NCBI GenBank assembly: GCA_021108275.1
Contig: JAIORD010000033.1
Span: 62,001 to 126,000 of the forward strand
Source: Methanococcoides sp.
Lineage (GTDB): Archaea > Halobacteriota > Methanosarcinia > Methanosarcinales > Methanosarcinaceae
DNA: 64,000 nt
Direction of reading: 5' to 3'
A program made the translations under genes and the position numbers. The notes below the pieces were generated by a model, which saw nothing but the letters and a program-made list of their open reading frames with translations, made no database searches and was not told the origin of the DNA. Shown one piece after another: positions 52,485 to 60,472 of the stretch; positions within the stretch are counted from its first letter, which is position 1; each line of letters starts with the position of its first letter.

Positions 52485-52643
52485 AGGAGCACCTCATTAT
52501 ATTCAAACAGTCCCACTGAACTTAGTAAATTAATTGATACTAAGTAACCTATTAAATAATTAACGACTGGAAAGTTCTTTAGGGGACAAGATATTAAATT
52601 TGCTCCTATAAACGTTCTAATTTGACTCCACTTATATTAAATT

Positions 52644-52855
52644 TCAGAGTATGAATAAAAGGTCATTAACACCACCAACGATAGCGGCGACCAATGTTTC
52701 AGCATAATTCGATCTGTTGAAAGTACCCCTGCGCATAATAACGTAATTCACATTTGGAACCAGAGATTCCAGATCATAAACACCAATGATATCGACTAAA
52801 TAAACGCTTCCATTTGCCTTTTTGAATATCGTTAAAAGAGGCGGAATTTCTTTTT
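52644..52855 (-). pseudogene. 3' relic of an unrecognised gene
   Basis: The minus strand holds an open tail reading KKANGSVYLVDIIGVYDLES, VPNVNYVIMRRGTFNRSNYA, ETLVAAIVGGVNDLLFIL and TGA. The composition is that of real protein, but there is no start codon, and the frame begins after a stop at about 52855 inside the end of the next gene. I do not recognise the family. The remaining bases to 52485 hold nothing clear. Confidence 0.4.
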
Positions 52856-53572
52856 AGCGATCAGCATTGACCCCGTTAATATCAATAACAATAATCCAAA
52901 TTTATTGTATGTCCGTTTTTTGTCATTGTCATTAATAATAAGATCATCATATATGCCTCCAAGACATGTTTCCTTTGATGCAGGTCCATCGAATGGTATC
53001 AATTCGTATTTATCAGCAGGATCAGTTATGTTGAGTACTGTATCATCGTTGTGACTCTTGTGAATTAACCCTTCAGATGATGGCAATCCTTCAAGCATAA
53101 AATATATCTTGAATGAAAGTTCATCCCCTTGAGCCTCGTTTTGAGATGTATTTGTCATCTGGAATTCCCAGTCAAAGTCAAGACTGATCACTTCACCTGA
53201 GCCAATATGAGTTATATTGATATATTTCAAATCAGAAGCATTCTGAGGGAAACCATCGATGTTGGATGGCAAAGACATGTTCGTTTCCATGCGTTCACCT
53301 GAAATGTTCAACAGAAGGTATTTACCAAGGCTTGCACCGTCACCTCCATGATCGACCTCATTAATCTCGCCGATCCAGATGTTGACAAAACCATCACTGC
53401 TACCACTATTGTTAAGCTCTATCGTCTTTGTGCCACTGTCCCCTGGCTTGATATTGCTGATTTCCCAACTAATTGCCCCTTCACCGCCAAGGTCCAGATC
53501 AACAACATAACCCTGAGCCTGTGTAGGCAGGAGCAATAATACAAGCAAGATCGAAAAGAGGATAGATCTCAA
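52832..53572 (-). CDS. Secreted/anchored protein of the fibre locus (camelysin/TasA-like beta domain)
   Basis: A TTG start is likely: the frame is closed by a TAG just upstream and no ATG is near. Residues 1-20 are a signal peptide (LLVLLLLPTQAQG). The mature part begins YVVDLDLGGEGAISWEISNI and KPGDSGTKTIELNNSGSSDG, a TasA/CalY-type strand pattern in which the KPGD loop and N-x-G-S-x-D-G are repeated themes of the locus. The C-terminus is a membrane helix and basic tail (FGLLLLILTGSMLIAKKKF), so the protein may anchor the fibres. It is the last gene of the leftward locus. Confidence 0.75.
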   Translation of the reverse strand: MRSILFSILLVLLLLPTQAQGYVVDLDLGGEGAISWEISNIKPGDSGTKTIELNNSGSSDGFVNIWIGEINEVDHGGDGASLGKYLLLNISGERMETNMSLPSNIDGFPQNASDLKYINITHIGSGEVISLDFDWEFQMTNTSQNEAQGDELSFKIYFMLEGLPSSEGLIHKSHNDDTVLNITDPADKYELIPFDGPASKETCLGGIYDDLIINDNDKKRTYNKFGLLLLILTGSMLIAKKKFRLF

Positions 53573-53635
53573 ATGAAGTATCTATCTTTGCTTGATCATG
53601 TTCTTTAATGACATATTTCTCAGCTTCATTTTTCT

Positions 53636-56089
53636 TTATTCAGAGTAATAAAGTCTTACCTCATGCAGCATAGGAGTATTCCCTTCTGCACTGGTCAGAG
53701 TTGCACGCCACTGAACATATTTCCCGGAAGGTAAACCTGAAGTGACAGGTGATGTTGACCCAATTGATGTCCAGGAAGGTGCTTCATCACCTTTGAGGAA
53801 TAAAGTATCTGATGCCCTTATCTCAAAGCTTATGTCAGTTCCGGATGCAAGAGTTTCATCCCAGAACAATCCGTCTATTTTGACCGGAGAGTTCTCCTGA
53901 CCAACGCTATAAAAGGTCGAAGGAGAGAACTGATTATTATAAGAGGTCTTGACCCAGCTTTCACTTCTCACTGTATTCGAGACCCTTGCCTCGTCAACGG
54001 TATTCCTTCCATACCAGCCAACTCCACTCCTGCCAATATAAAATTCACTATTTGCCATGGAAAAACTGAAAGCATGTGTGGTGGGTAACAACACACCGTC
54101 CTGATAGAACCTGACAATCCCATTTTCCCTCTGGACCACCAGATGGTACCATGTATTTAAGGAAAGAACATTTCCAGCTAGTCTGTAGCTCCCATAGTAT
54201 GTACCCCACTGAGTGTTCTGGTATGTCTTAGTATATATCGCAGGGGCATAGTTCCCGTTAGTCATTATTGGATTTATGTCATTATATACATCCGGAGTTT
54301 TTGCCCATACTGACCACGTATAATTACCATAGCCAATGTTGTGATCCATTACTCCAACATTTACGTGGTCATTAGAACCATCAAAATACTGTGCATTTCC
54401 AACCATCCCATCAACCTCAAGGGGCTCATCGATAGCTGTCTTGATACCATCATAATTGTTAGAGGTACTATCTTCCGTGGCAGTTGAGTTCAGGTTGTTC
54501 AAATGCTGAACCATCAGGAAATTGCTGTCCCAGACACCCGTGACGTCTTCCTGACTTCCACAACTTTGATCCCCATATTGCATGTAAATAGCCGTGTCCG
54601 TAGTATTGGACAGGCTTGGGATCTTTACCCAGGCGACCAGTTCTCCGGTGGAACTATTGTATTCCTCGATCTCATGGCTAAGTCTTGTATCATCCGCTGC
54701 GGTAAAGAATATATCATCACCATCGTTCTGCGTATGAGCAGCCAGATCAGCATCTGTTGATAGACTTATCAATACAGGGAAATCTGTAAGTTCCCCCTCC
54801 ACCTTAGTGTGATCGATAGTAATTTTCTTATTACGATGCTCATGGCTGGATTCAAGAACCTGGGATGCAATAGTGCCCGTAGTTGTAGTGCAGCCACTTC
54901 CTTCCACACCTATATCATAAAAGGTTGAAGAGGAATACTGGCTGTTATAAGAAGTATTGATCCAGCTTTGGCTTCTTGCCTTATTAGAAATACGCAGTTC
55001 GTCAATGATCCCGTCAAATTGTTCACCCGAATCAGGATTACCATCACCTATCACCAGAGAGTCGCTATTTGTTGTTAATGAGTTTGATTCAGTATCATTA
55101 TATTTTTCATCACCATCAACATATACACGCAAACTGTCCGCAGTATCATTGTACACTGCGACCACATGGTACCATGTATCATTTGAAATAATGTTAGATG
55201 TAGCACTTTCATGCCACCCTCCACTATAAAAACCATAATTCATTGTACCATTGTTGACAGAAAAATAATAATTGGTCGCAAGATTGGTTGTTGTTTTGTC
55301 AAGCATGACTTTGTAACTACTCAATTGATGCGGATATATCCAGGCTTCAATTATCATCTCATCAGTCATATTCAAACTGTCGTCATGGGCAACTTCGATA
55401 AAGTCATTTATCCCATCAAAATCATCAGCACCTGAGATCAAACCTGTAGCATTTTGAGTCACATTATTTTGAGGACTCCCATCATTGCTGTACGAGCTTG
55501 AATCATAATGGGTTCCTGATTCTTCATTGAGGTGCTGGACCATCACAAAGTTGTTGTCCCAGACATCGCTGGCATTTGCTTGGCTTTCACAGCTTGGATT
55601 GCCATAGTGCATGTAGATATCGGTGTCTACAGTGCTAGATAGTTCTGGAACTTTTACCCATGATACCAGTTTGCCAGTGCTAACATTGAATTCTTCGAGC
55701 TCATGACTGAGTTTGTTATTATCAGAGTCTGTGAACAGAATATCATCACCATCTGCCTGTGCATGAGCAACAAGGTCAGAGTCTGATAAAATGTTGATCA
55801 GAACAGGGAAATCCGTCAGATCCCCTTCAACCATTGTGTGGTTTATGGTTATCTTCTTTTTATAACCTGAAATCTCATACCAGCATTCTTTGGAACCCAT
55901 AACAGTCATGGGTTCAGGAAAAGCATATCTGCGAACGATATGTTCGTCCCTGTAGCCTTCTTCACCATACTGGCTCCAAAAACCAGTTTTTCCAGAGGTA
56001 GGTGCATCGGGATCCAGTGTCGAATTGCCGACATATACGTCATCGAGGTAGAAATCTACCGTATTATCCAATACCCTCAGCTCTTGCAT
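53636..56089 (-). CDS. DUF2341/LamG surface protein, part after an in-frame TAG
   Basis: This 817-residue frame is in the same phase as the gene upstream and separated from it only by one TAG and 15 sense codons (56090-56137), so I regard both as one 1626-codon gene. It holds two DUF2341 domains (YKKKITINHTMVEGDLTDFP...; NKKITIDHTKVEGELTDFP...) each followed by a LamG/concanavalin-like domain (DDFDGINDFIEVAHDDSLNM...; AQYFDGSNDHVNVGVMD...), a tandem duplication, and a short C-terminal beta domain. No ribosome site precedes the first ATG. These domains bind sugars or surfaces outside the cell. Confidence 0.85.
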   Translation of the reverse strand: MQELRVLDNTVDFYLDDVYVGNSTLDPDAPTSGKTGFWSQYGEEGYRDEHIVRRYAFPEPMTVMGSKECWYEISGYKKKITINHTMVEGDLTDFPVLINILSDSDLVAHAQADGDDILFTDSDNNKLSHELEEFNVSTGKLVSWVKVPELSSTVDTDIYMHYGNPSCESQANASDVWDNNFVMVQHLNEESGTHYDSSSYSNDGSPQNNVTQNATGLISGADDFDGINDFIEVAHDDSLNMTDEMIIEAWIYPHQLSSYKVMLDKTTTNLATNYYFSVNNGTMNYGFYSGGWHESATSNIISNDTWYHVVAVYNDTADSLRVYVDGDEKYNDTESNSLTTNSDSLVIGDGNPDSGEQFDGIIDELRISNKARSQSWINTSYNSQYSSSTFYDIGVEGSGCTTTTGTIASQVLESSHEHRNKKITIDHTKVEGELTDFPVLISLSTDADLAAHTQNDGDDIFFTAADDTRLSHEIEEYNSSTGELVAWVKIPSLSNTTDTAIYMQYGDQSCGSQEDVTGVWDSNFLMVQHLNNLNSTATEDSTSNNYDGIKTAIDEPLEVDGMVGNAQYFDGSNDHVNVGVMDHNIGYGNYTWSVWAKTPDVYNDINPIMTNGNYAPAIYTKTYQNTQWGTYYGSYRLAGNVLSLNTWYHLVVQRENGIVRFYQDGVLLPTTHAFSFSMANSEFYIGRSGVGWYGRNTVDEARVSNTVRSESWVKTSYNNQFSPSTFYSVGQENSPVKIDGLFWDETLASGTDISFEIRASDTLFLKGDEAPSWTSIGSTSPVTSGLPSGKYVQWRATLTSAEGNTPMLHEVRLYYSE

Positions 56090-56134
56090 ATGCCAACTGG
56101 CACCAACATCGGAAATATTCCAGTTCCCACCAAT

Positions 56135-58516
56135 CTAATTCCATCCACTAGCATCGGCCCATGAAGCAGATTCATTTCTTTCCCACAGTTGTGTTGTTGT
56201 GTTATTTATGATCCCACCGTATACTTCACGTGTCTCGTTTGTATAATGAACAACAAGCCCTGCATTAGATATGTTCCCATCAATTGATCTGAACATCTGT
56301 CTGCAGGCAATGTCTGTCCAGGAAGAGTTCCCAGCGACAACATTTCCGCCCACTCCATTGCCATCATACAATACCTTGTTTCCGGCATCCGACCGGACTT
56401 CTACAGTGGATTTTGAGATCATTATTTCATCGAGCTGGACCTGCTGGGTCCCATCGCTAGACAAGAAGGCTTTGAAATAGAAAATACCCGGACCAATATC
56501 ATCCTCTAGGCTGCCTACACTAGACTCAACATCTTCTACGCTGTTGGTTTGGGCAAATCCTGAAGAAACCACCCAGTCTGTTCCATCATGATAATACCAG
56601 CTAATGTTATCATTACTTATCTGATATCTTATTTCACCCTGATTGTCAGGTCCCTGAATGGAACTGAAATTGCATATTGCATCATAGGAATATCCAGTAA
56701 CCGGCTGAATGCTTGGAGCATCAGTGGAGTATGAGGGATTTGAAACCGCTCCCAGGGTAACGTTCACAGGCGTGATCACCTCTTCTATTATGGGTTGCGC
56801 CTCTACCTGTGTATCTACATCAGGTTCCTTGTAAATGAAATACCATTCAACATCCTGTTGGTTTAATGTACTCATGTACTTAGATGGATTGTCATGCCAG
56901 CTACTATCGTCAAGTACCTCAGAATGCCATGCTCCACTAATATTTACATTGTAAATTATGGAAGATAGATCTCCTGCCATGACAGCACTCTGATAATCGG
57001 GACTATCCCAGGCAACAAGGTTGGTATTAGTTCCCACCTCCGAAACTGATTCGATCTCCCAGAGATTACCATGCCAGTTAGTATAATAATGATAGATGAC
57101 CTTCATCCAGGGCTGGTCCTTGTAGTAAATAGTCTCCACATAGGAACCATCACTGTAATGCTGATAGAATTTGAGTTTTATAGGACCTACTTCTGGAGCA
57201 TCAGTTGTCATACTTCCAAAAGAGGGTTGCATGTGTTCCTGGTCAGGGGCTGGGCGCATATTGGTGCCAAATTCCCAATAGGCAGTAGTGCTATAGGTAT
57301 AGCTGGAATTGTCCCAGCTAATATCATTGTACAACCCTCCTTTGATCTCATGGAGTTTCCAGTGAAGTTTTTCACTTATCTCATACCATACTCCATTTTG
57401 ACCTGCATAATCTGTGTCTGAATTTATGGAAATATTGGTATATCCAGCCGCATTCTTGGGGTTTGTAGTTGTATCGAAGTAAGCGTAATAGTACCTTGAA
57501 GTATTGGACAGTGTGGAGCCATTAAGGATCCATATTACATCCCCCACAGCGTTATTGGAAGCATCATAACTGTTTTCTTTTATCAATTGTGATGTTCTTT
57601 CCCCAAGGATATTTCCAATAGAATCATACTCAATTACCCTTATTGAGTTATCATCAAATGTCTGATCGGGGTTATTTAAGAGGGATGTGAAATTGGCATT
57701 CCATGTGACTACAGGATCGGTCCTGTTATAGCTACTTGTGTTCACATCAAGGTATACACGGTATCTCCAATCTCCATCCCACCATTCTGGATTTGACGTG
57801 CCAATAAGCTGGGCATAGCCGTCTTCAAATTCTATCTTTGAGCTATTATAGATGTAATCAGAACTATCTGTATGATTCCATGTATTGCTGTTAGAATCCT
57901 TTATTTCCCAGTTCTGCGGGACATCGCCTTCACCATATCCCTCAAAGTCATCATAGAATAGAAATGTCTGAGATCCATTGCTGACACTAACAGCGTCATC
58001 ATTACCATAATAGGTGTAGATGGTTTTGTCACCTGAAGGGATATCAGGGACTCTAACCCAGAAAGTGGCAGATATTGAATCATTATAGTCATCAAGCCAG
58101 CAAAAAAGCTGTGTAATTCCATCAGAATCTACAAACCTTATGTCATCAAAATCAGGCTGCATCTGGTCATCATAGGCCAGATCGACCTTGACCTGATAGT
58201 CTGAAAGTGCAGAGCCGGAATTATTCAGAACAATTTCTTTCCTGTAAAGCCATGCCCCTTCATACCAGATCCCGGAATCGCCATAACCTTCCATGATCAC
58301 ATCCCCTGAATTTGATGAAACATCAACATCAGTGAGATCCCCTGCACTAAAATCTGCTTCAGTTGTCTGTTTCCAGAGCAGGGAAGTCCAGGCTCCAAAG
58401 CTATTGCCACTGGAACTCTCAACATCTACATATAAGCAGTTTGTAAAACCACTATTCATTGCCAGCAGCAATATAATACCAATTGATAAAATTGAAAGGA
58501 TAGGCTTAAACTCCAT
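56135..58516 (-). CDS. DUF2341 surface protein, N-terminal part ending at TAG
   Basis: The 793 residues begin with a signal peptide (SILSIGIILLLAMNSG) and a TasA/CalY-like lead (VDVESSSGNSFGAWTS, TTEADFSAGDLTDVD). A DUF2341 domain follows (YRKEIVLNNSGSALSDYQVK... IYTYYGND), then a long beta region (WRYRVYLDVNTSSYN..., VTLGAVSNPSYSTDAPSIQ) and a domain that continues smoothly across the TAG at 56135-56137 (ASWADASGWN, TAG, IGGNWNISDVGASWH). GGGAAC lies near the ATG; the upstream signal-peptidase gene ends one base before it. UAG here may be read as pyrrolysine or be a nonsense mutation. Confidence 0.85.
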   Translation of the reverse strand: MEFKPILSILSIGIILLLAMNSGFTNCLYVDVESSSGNSFGAWTSLLWKQTTEADFSAGDLTDVDVSSNSGDVIMEGYGDSGIWYEGAWLYRKEIVLNNSGSALSDYQVKVDLAYDDQMQPDFDDIRFVDSDGITQLFCWLDDYNDSISATFWVRVPDIPSGDKTIYTYYGNDDAVSVSNGSQTFLFYDDFEGYGEGDVPQNWEIKDSNSNTWNHTDSSDYIYNSSKIEFEDGYAQLIGTSNPEWWDGDWRYRVYLDVNTSSYNRTDPVVTWNANFTSLLNNPDQTFDDNSIRVIEYDSIGNILGERTSQLIKENSYDASNNAVGDVIWILNGSTLSNTSRYYYAYFDTTTNPKNAAGYTNISINSDTDYAGQNGVWYEISEKLHWKLHEIKGGLYNDISWDNSSYTYSTTAYWEFGTNMRPAPDQEHMQPSFGSMTTDAPEVGPIKLKFYQHYSDGSYVETIYYKDQPWMKVIYHYYTNWHGNLWEIESVSEVGTNTNLVAWDSPDYQSAVMAGDLSSIIYNVNISGAWHSEVLDDSSWHDNPSKYMSTLNQQDVEWYFIYKEPDVDTQVEAQPIIEEVITPVNVTLGAVSNPSYSTDAPSIQPVTGYSYDAICNFSSIQGPDNQGEIRYQISNDNISWYYHDGTDWVVSSGFAQTNSVEDVESSVGSLEDDIGPGIFYFKAFLSSDGTQQVQLDEIMISKSTVEVRSDAGNKVLYDGNGVGGNVVAGNSSWTDIACRQMFRSIDGNISNAGLVVHYTNETREVYGGIINNTTTQLWERNESASWADASGWN

Positions 58517-58517
58517 A

Positions 58518-59030
58518 TTATGTTCCCTTCTCCATATCTTTGTTATTATCCCGCGCTTGCCAGAGCTTTCTTACCTCCAGAAGGATGATCATGATACCGG
58601 GTATGCAAAAGGTCAGCACAAAGCCAATTGGAGTTTTGATGAACTGGCTGACATAACCAAAATAGGGTATTTTGAGACAAACCTTTCCAACCACATTCTT
58701 TGCAGGAACCATGTAAGGGTCGGCATCTTCATTTGCATCACCCTTGGTCTGGAATTGTAGCGGGGATGTCTTTTCTACGGCCATAACTCTGTGGGTTGTG
58801 ATCCTTTTGTTGGATGGGGAAGAGAAAGTGATGATGTCGCCAACTTTTATTTCGTCTGTACTGACCGGCTTTGTTACAACAAGGTCCCCAGTCGAGATTT
58901 CTGGTTCCATGCTGCCGGATCTGACGGCATCTAAGCTCCATCCAAAATTTGGCGCCATAAATGTGAACAAAGCTATCACTAGAAGTAGTACAAGTAAAAA
59001 TGTGCCGATAGACTCTAAAAGTTTCCCCAT
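58518..59030 (-). CDS. Signal peptidase I, archaeal/SipW type
   Basis: I start at the ATG 59028-59030 (170 residues). The nucleophile is in VRSGSMEPEISTGDLVV and the partner is a histidine (ITTHRVMAVE), the Ser-His form of archaeal and SipW-type peptidases rather than Ser-Lys. A TM helix leads (FLLVLLLVIALFTFMA) and another ends the protein. In Bacillus SipW processes TasA and related fibre proteins; the same order here (fibre gene, peptidase, large surface genes) supports a dedicated role. Confidence 0.92.
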   Translation of the reverse strand: MGKLLESIGTFLLVLLLVIALFTFMAPNFGWSLDAVRSGSMEPEISTGDLVVTKPVSTDEIKVGDIITFSSPSNKRITTHRVMAVEKTSPLQFQTKGDANEDADPYMVPAKNVVGKVCLKIPYFGYVSQFIKTPIGFVLTFCIPGIMIILLEVRKLWQARDNNKDMEKGT

Positions 59031-59111
59031 ATTTGAATGATACAATATGAATGAAATTAATGGAGTTGATGGGTTTACTGCCCATCAACATGTTCTCAGC
59101 TTTTTAAGCCA

Positions 59112-59768
59112 TCAAACCGTACTCTGTTCAAGAGTAAAAGTCATGTTAAAGACGCAACTGTCGCTCTGGACCTCATTGATGTCGGCACCATCAGGAAGTT
59201 CGTATTCTATTTTTAAGGTTCCAATATTCCCCAGACCAAGGTTGGTCTGAACATCTGTCCATGAAACAGATGTATAATCATCCATAATGTTGTATGCTTC
59301 ATCTGGTAAGGCACCTGATACATAATCTACTGTGTTTCCATCATCTTCCAGGTAGTAATCTCCGTCATTCCAAGTACCGCTGGTATCTTTATCCATCCAG
59401 ATAGCAACCTTGAGGTGATCTTCGAGTTCACCCCCAACATCACTGAGATCTCCAGCATCGATCTCCATTTCATAGCGAGTATTTTCGTTACTTGTTATTG
59501 CAGAGATCGATATGTTGAAGTCACCATCAACTGAACCAACGTTTTGTATTAACCAGGAAGTACTGCCAGAATTCCCAGGTGCTAAGTTTAAAAAAGATAT
59601 TGATTCTGTACATGGATCCTCATCACCGACTTTCAAGTTCAGTGATCATGCTGTAAATGTATTATTCTCTGCGATCTCAGTATCACTGAAATATGCATAG
59701 GTCCCTCCTCCGATAAAAAGAGCCACCACTGAGATTAACATAATACCAAATAAGATTTTCCTTTCCAA
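59112..59768 (-). pseudogene. TasA/CalY-like fibre protein interrupted by an in-frame TGA
   Basis: From a TTG at 59766-59768 behind GGAGGT the frame reads MERKILFGIMLISVVALFIG, GGGTYAYFSDTEIAENNTFTA, then TGA (59646-59648), then SLNLKVGDEDPCTESISF to the end at 59112. TYAYFSDTE...TFTAGSL is the classic start of SipW-processed TasA/camelysin proteins; the Gly codon GGA is here TGA, a single-base change. The rest has the usual LAPGNSGSTSWLIQNVGSVDG and an Asp-rich DKDTSGTWNDGDYY loop. Methanosarcinaceae are not known to use UGA for selenocysteine. So it is likely a nonsense mutation; a downstream TTG (59636) gives a headless product. Confidence 0.75.
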
Positions 59769-60472
59769 ATTTATTACCTCCATTTATGCATTTTAATTTA
59801 TTAGGGGAGACTCAATCAGATATTATTAACATTGAAAGATACAAATTGATTAATGATACAGTGTGTAAAATATGCCTCTGATCATATACCCCAATATCCT
59901 TGTGCAAATGTAATTTATCATTATGAGGGAATTGTTTATCATAATGACTATTATGATTATAAAATATATCCCCCATTTAGTATATATAAATAACTATAGT
60001 GCCGTTGTAAAGTTATCATGACGATCCATACACACACAAATGCCATCAGACCACCCGATGCCGATTAAAATTGAATATGACGATTGCCCGAAGCATGCTA
60101 GTATTGGAAAATGGGGAATGGCACCATAGTTGAAAAAATTCATTTAAAATATTAGTATCAGAACCATTAACAAAGCGAGATCATGTCAAAACATTATGCT
60201 GATAACAATTATAATTTCACATTGATGAGTAAATTGAAGGATATCACCAATATTAAGAAAATATAAAAAAACGCCAGATCGAGAAGTTATCTTTGTCAAC
60301 ACGAAATATAAAGGAGTTCCCCATACACAAAATGAATAGCTACTATAGTATTAGCCCAATATGATTCATTTCAAAAAGGCAACAATGGACAGGAGTTCTT
60401 AGTAAACACAGGTCATTAAAAAAATAGGAAATATATGAAAGTAGCATTCAAATTTGCTACCTTCGGAACAGA
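59769..60472. other. Long intergenic region upstream of the fibre locus
   Basis: About 700 bp, AT-rich. The right part of the fibre-gene leader has GGAGGT at 59774-59779. A plus-strand 29-codon frame (60040-60129: MPSDHPMPIKIEYDDCPKHA, SIGKWGMAP) ends in TAG, then five further codons (LKKFI) and TAA; it looks protein-like but has no ribosome site. A TATATAAATA box lies at about 59984-59993 ahead of it. I see no other structure. Confidence 0.35.

Follow-up and report, generated by a model that had tools for sequence, protein, structure and literature searches.

A UAG codon probably read as pyrrolysine in an adhesin-like gene of a TasA-type operon in Methanococcoides

Two adjacent open reading frames (ORFs) of a Methanococcoides genome, 793 and 817 codons long, are the two parts of a single gene for a large secreted, adhesin-like protein, and the one TAG between them is probably translated. 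The window, by which we mean the whole 64,000-nucleotide stretch of DNA that was analysed, comes from a draft genome of 2.67 Mb in 60 contigs. The reading that we consider likely is that UAG at codon 794 is read through with pyrrolysine (Pyl), giving the full-length protein, and that Pyl is tolerated, not selected for, at this former tryptophan position.

The adhesin-like gene and its orthologues

The gene, its TAG and the surrounding domain lie at these window positions:

53636..58516, minus strand: single gene encoding a large, secreted, adhesin-like protein (1626 codons if the TAG is counted as sense)
56135..56137, minus strand: in-frame TAG, codon 794 of 1626
55922..56404, minus strand: TAG-spanning domain, residues 705-865, uninterrupted in four relatives

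The TAG at 56137..56135 is the sole interruption of the 1626-codon frame (58516..53636, minus strand), which holds no frameshift, no TAA and no TGA. Fifteen sense codons (IGGNWNISDVGASWH) separate it from ATG 56089, at which the mechanically called 817-aa ORF begins. This frame confirms the preliminary description, in which the two ORFs had been placed in the same phase with one TAG and 15 sense codons between them. Downstream of the TAG the frame stays open for 832 codons. For comparison, the first 364 kb of the sample contain 191 ORFs of at least 200 aa that end in TAA or TGA; past their stops the frame stays open for a median of 10-14 codons and at most 473. Codon-usage scores are equal on either side of the TAG (0.05-0.06), and the G+C content by codon position is 0.46/0.40/0.40 before it and 0.47/0.40/0.40 after it. 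The protein has three DUF2341 matches and two LamG-like domains, with one further domain across the TAG, and no methyltransferase domain. The sequence pattern suggests that the TAG-spanning domain is concanavalin A-like; the AlphaFold2 model of this split domain is poor (pLDDT 47), and the PDB gave no match. A search for a PYLIS-like structure after the TAG gave no excess folding (z -0.8), and there are no Rfam matches within 52-61 kb of the window. Competition between Pyl-tRNA and the release factor is the presumed mechanism at UAG in archaea that use Pyl, and a special RNA element is not required (PMC9499178).

Of 393 genomes of the phylum searched, three from one other genus carry the TAG-surrounding domain uninterrupted, as does a fourth genome of that genus. 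The first three share the gene order of the window, with a TasA-like fibre gene, the signal peptidase, the large protein and then another TasA-like gene, and the large protein of each of these orthologous operons is a single ORF of 672-697 codons. Because the orthologue in the same operon is thus uninterrupted in these three archaea, the comparison shows that the 793- and 817-codon frames are a single gene, which bears out the earlier view that the domain continues across the stop. The full comparison was made with the 672-codon orthologue (L173), which is matched in order by window residues 7-75, 89-203 and 705-743 before the TAG and 808-865 and 1546-1625 after it. Relative to the orthologues, the window gene carries additional DUF2341 and LamG units. 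Within the family to which the window belongs, another genus has a related operon whose large protein is shorter and corresponds to the N- and C-terminal parts only. The viral and plasmid collections gave no relative covering the TAG, and the genome-contig scan returned one distant relative, without a match to the TAG-spanning region.

In an L-INS-i alignment of the full orthologues, the TAG column is a conserved Trp (TGG) in three orthologues; some MAFFT alignments shift the TAG by one or two residues from this Trp or place it in a gap. The ancestral codon was therefore probably, not certainly, TGG, and the simplest origin of the TAG is probably a single G-to-A change in that Trp codon. The preliminary description had held that close relatives with TGG at this codon, together with other stops in the gene, would refute a Pyl reading. 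Close orthologues were not found; distant ones do have TGG, but the gene has no other stop.

Pyrrolysine genes and UAG usage in the genome and genus

A search for pylTSBCD elsewhere in the genome had been proposed as a check, and the host genome has a complete cluster, pylT(CUA)-S-B-C-D, in which tRNA-Pyl bears the anticodon CUA. The pylS match scores 434 bits (cut-off 178) and that of pylB 583 bits (cut-off 348), while pylC and pylD are the ORFs after pylB, assigned by sequence and order alone. The stop of the pylB gene (L121:2291-3481, plus strand) is itself a TAG; the frame stays open for another 42 codons, which overlap the pylC start in a different frame. Each of the 11 species of the genus has one TAG in this stretch (loci L185-L195), at an identical position in the five checked, and an extension of PylB that depends on Pyl could act as a feedback.

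UAG hardly ever ends a long ORF in this genome. We sampled 752 kb (28% of the genome) for mechanical ORFs of at least 150 aa, which are not curated genes; of 515 such ORFs, 279 end in TGA, 227 in TAA and nine in TAG, yet TAG makes up 18% of stop trinucleotides. At least six of the nine run on into coding-like sequence: the dimethylamine methyltransferase MtbB (TIGR02368), which has an in-frame TAG in this genome, three histidine kinases, a HyuA/HyuB-like gene and the adhesin-like gene. Within the window, the adhesin frame is the only TAG-ended ORF of at least 150 aa chosen as a gene. The preliminary description had stated that TAG rarely terminates genes in the window, and our count comes close to its own; its reading of this as the UAG-decoding pattern of Methanosarcinaceae agrees with the pyl cluster and with the avoidance of TAG as a terminator.

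Two further sets of genes, given by locus, carry a TAG within coding sequence:

L061:10946-12883, plus strand (also G000:C7:17236, C2:76818 and C25:275; loci L101-L118): sensor histidine kinase clade with in-frame TAG
L066:6730-10347, plus strand (loci L089-L099): HyuA/HyuB-like gene, 1205 codons, TAG at codon 696

In the kinases the TAG falls in the ATPase domain. All 18 aligned sequences, which together cover the 11 species of the genus, have it at one invariant codon, whereas the codons around it vary. Most of these sequences are 69-85% identical to the query, several paralogues occur in some species, and the median dN/dS of the clade is 0.109 after the TAG as compared with 0.183 before it. 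Among the matches listed, the kinase TAG is absent outside the genus. At the TAG of the HyuA/HyuB-like gene, other species have AAG, GAG, GAT or AAT, one sister species has a TAG of its own at codon 742 instead, and purifying selection is retained downstream of the TAG. Translation of UAG in ordinary genes of this genus is thus shown by the kinase clade and the HyuA/HyuB-like gene. The identity of the inserted residue as Pyl would follow from the pyl genes and from established knowledge. The adhesin-like gene then appears as one among several sense-UAG genes of the genome, and the earlier statement that Pyl is known almost only from methyltransferases, so that its occurrence here would be new, was too strong.

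Some archaea reportedly use UAG for Pyl throughout, according to a 2025 report on a 'Pyl code'. A 2024 review still restricts Pyl to a small number of methyltransferases (PMC11363022), and a computational survey of 2013 listed candidate UAG genes outside the methyltransferases, a histidine kinase included (PMC3639795). The adhesin-like gene adds a new case to these already known non-methyltransferase UAG genes. With the wide decoding of UAG as Pyl in methylotrophic archaea (candidate gene lists in PMC3639795) it shares a genome with pylTSBCD, the avoidance of TAG, and an in-frame TAG in an ordinary gene whose orthologues have a sense codon; it differs in that the protein is a secreted adhesin of a filament operon, with decoding proposed from sequence. 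MtmB, MtbB and MttB likewise have an in-frame TAG in a pyl-bearing genome, but their Pyl is a conserved catalytic residue, whereas the window protein is unrelated to them and its orthologues have Trp at the position.

The filament operon and its insertion

The remaining genes of the operon, and the insertion that bears it, are as follows:

58518..59045, minus strand: archaeal signal peptidase I, SipW-like (TIGR02228, 127 bits, cut-off 51.85)
59112..59768, minus strand: tasA1, TasA/camelysin-like fibre gene, with an in-frame TGA at 59646-59648
52832..53572, minus strand: tasA2, second TasA-like gene (Peptidase_M73, 26.8 bits; orthologues L171, L173-L175)
52626..60446, no strand: operon-bearing insertion of about 7.8 kb, absent at the site in five sister species

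The frames of the signal peptidase and of tasA2 are intact. In tasA1, the signal-peptide region is closely followed by a TGA where four orthologues have a sense codon; the part after this TGA matches Peptidase_M73 at 22.2 bits, just under the cut-off of 22.5. This TGA had been reported in the preliminary description and is present in the sequence (59648..59646, minus strand). Since UGA is not read by tRNA-Pyl, the tasA1 fibre subunit would not be made from the gene as assembled. Like the Bacillus TasA/SipW filament operons and their archaeal relatives, the operon places TasA/camelysin-like subunits beside a dedicated signal peptidase; it differs in having a large DUF2341/LamG protein and a TGA in tasA1, and its filaments are predicted.

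A further TAG (53582-53584, minus strand) occurs in frame a short way before the tasA2 start codon, TTG. Were translation to begin at ATG 53629, which closely follows the stop of the adhesin gene, this TAG would also be sense. We discarded it as evidence for sense UAG, as the orthologues fit the downstream TTG start equally well.

In five sister species, the flanks of the insertion site adjoin without the operon. The insertion of about 7.8 kb has no obvious terminal repeats, and tasA1 has no match in the other species of the genus.

Explanations for the TAG at codon 794

The interrupted tasA1 gives the strongest argument for an operon in decay, in which the TAG would be among several nonsense mutations that recently arose in an acquired filament locus and the protein would be functionless whether or not UAG is Pyl. 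The TGA stands where four orthologues have sense, the operon is a species-specific insertion, and every other species of the genus lacks a tasA1 match. Against decay stand the 1626 codons without frameshift, TAA or TGA, the intact frames of the signal peptidase and of tasA2, and the use of TAG as a sense codon elsewhere in the genus; we regard decay as unlikely. The caution in the preliminary description that the locus may be dying holds in part, as the TGA of tasA1 marks a broken gene elsewhere in the operon, but the adhesin gene itself has no further stop. Two single-codon interruptions in one operon of a draft assembly of 60 contigs, where a second copy for comparison is lacking, could also suggest that the TAG and the tasA1 TGA are sequence or assembly errors. 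However, neither site lies in a homopolymer, and the kinase-clade TAGs of this genome recur in independent genomes, which makes such errors very improbable.

It is hardly credible that the two frames encode separate proteins, a secreted one of 793 residues ending at the TAG and an independent one of 817. Both frames are long, and ATG 56089 is preceded at a distance of 8 bases by a weak GGTG, a 4-base match only. The orthologues, however, are one ORF and align with the 15 codons after the TAG, and the second frame would start within a domain. Because this half lacks its own signal peptide and its ATG lies inside a domain, it would as a separate protein presumably be neither folded nor exported. 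The earlier remark that no ribosome site precedes the second part thus mostly stands, given the start inside a domain, with the weak GGTG as a reservation.

We therefore favor read-through of UAG at codon 794, for which we envision the following course. The two frames are one gene, coding for a secreted adhesin with several domains in a TasA-type filament operon, and the TGG (Trp) codon of this gene would have become TAG by one G-to-A change. As tRNA-Pyl(CUA), pyrrolysyl-tRNA synthetase and PylBCD are present and UAG hardly ever ends genes, Pyl-tRNA would out-compete the release factor at this UAG and pyrrolysine would enter at residue 794. The product would be the full 1626-residue protein, perhaps with a minor truncated form of 793 residues. 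Two observations count against read-through: the TAG seems to replace a conserved Trp, a change that is not obviously harmless, and tasA1 of the same operon holds a TGA, which tRNA-Pyl does not read. We infer that Pyl is tolerated rather than needed at residue 794, and there is no indication of a special function for it in the adhesin-like protein. A regulatory role, in which the Pyl supply would set adhesin length (a 1626-residue form exported with Pyl, a 793-residue form without) and adhesion would depend on methylamine growth, is distinctly improbable.

Sense-UAG genes will be split, or labeled as pseudogenes, by gene callers that use the standard code. The genus-wide kinase clade with its invariant UAG is a more interesting lead than the adhesin. 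If confirmed, read-through at codon 794 would place pyrrolysine in a secreted filament adhesin and would support the view of UAG in this genus as a sense codon that is ordinary though rare, rather than a signal peculiar to methyltransferases.
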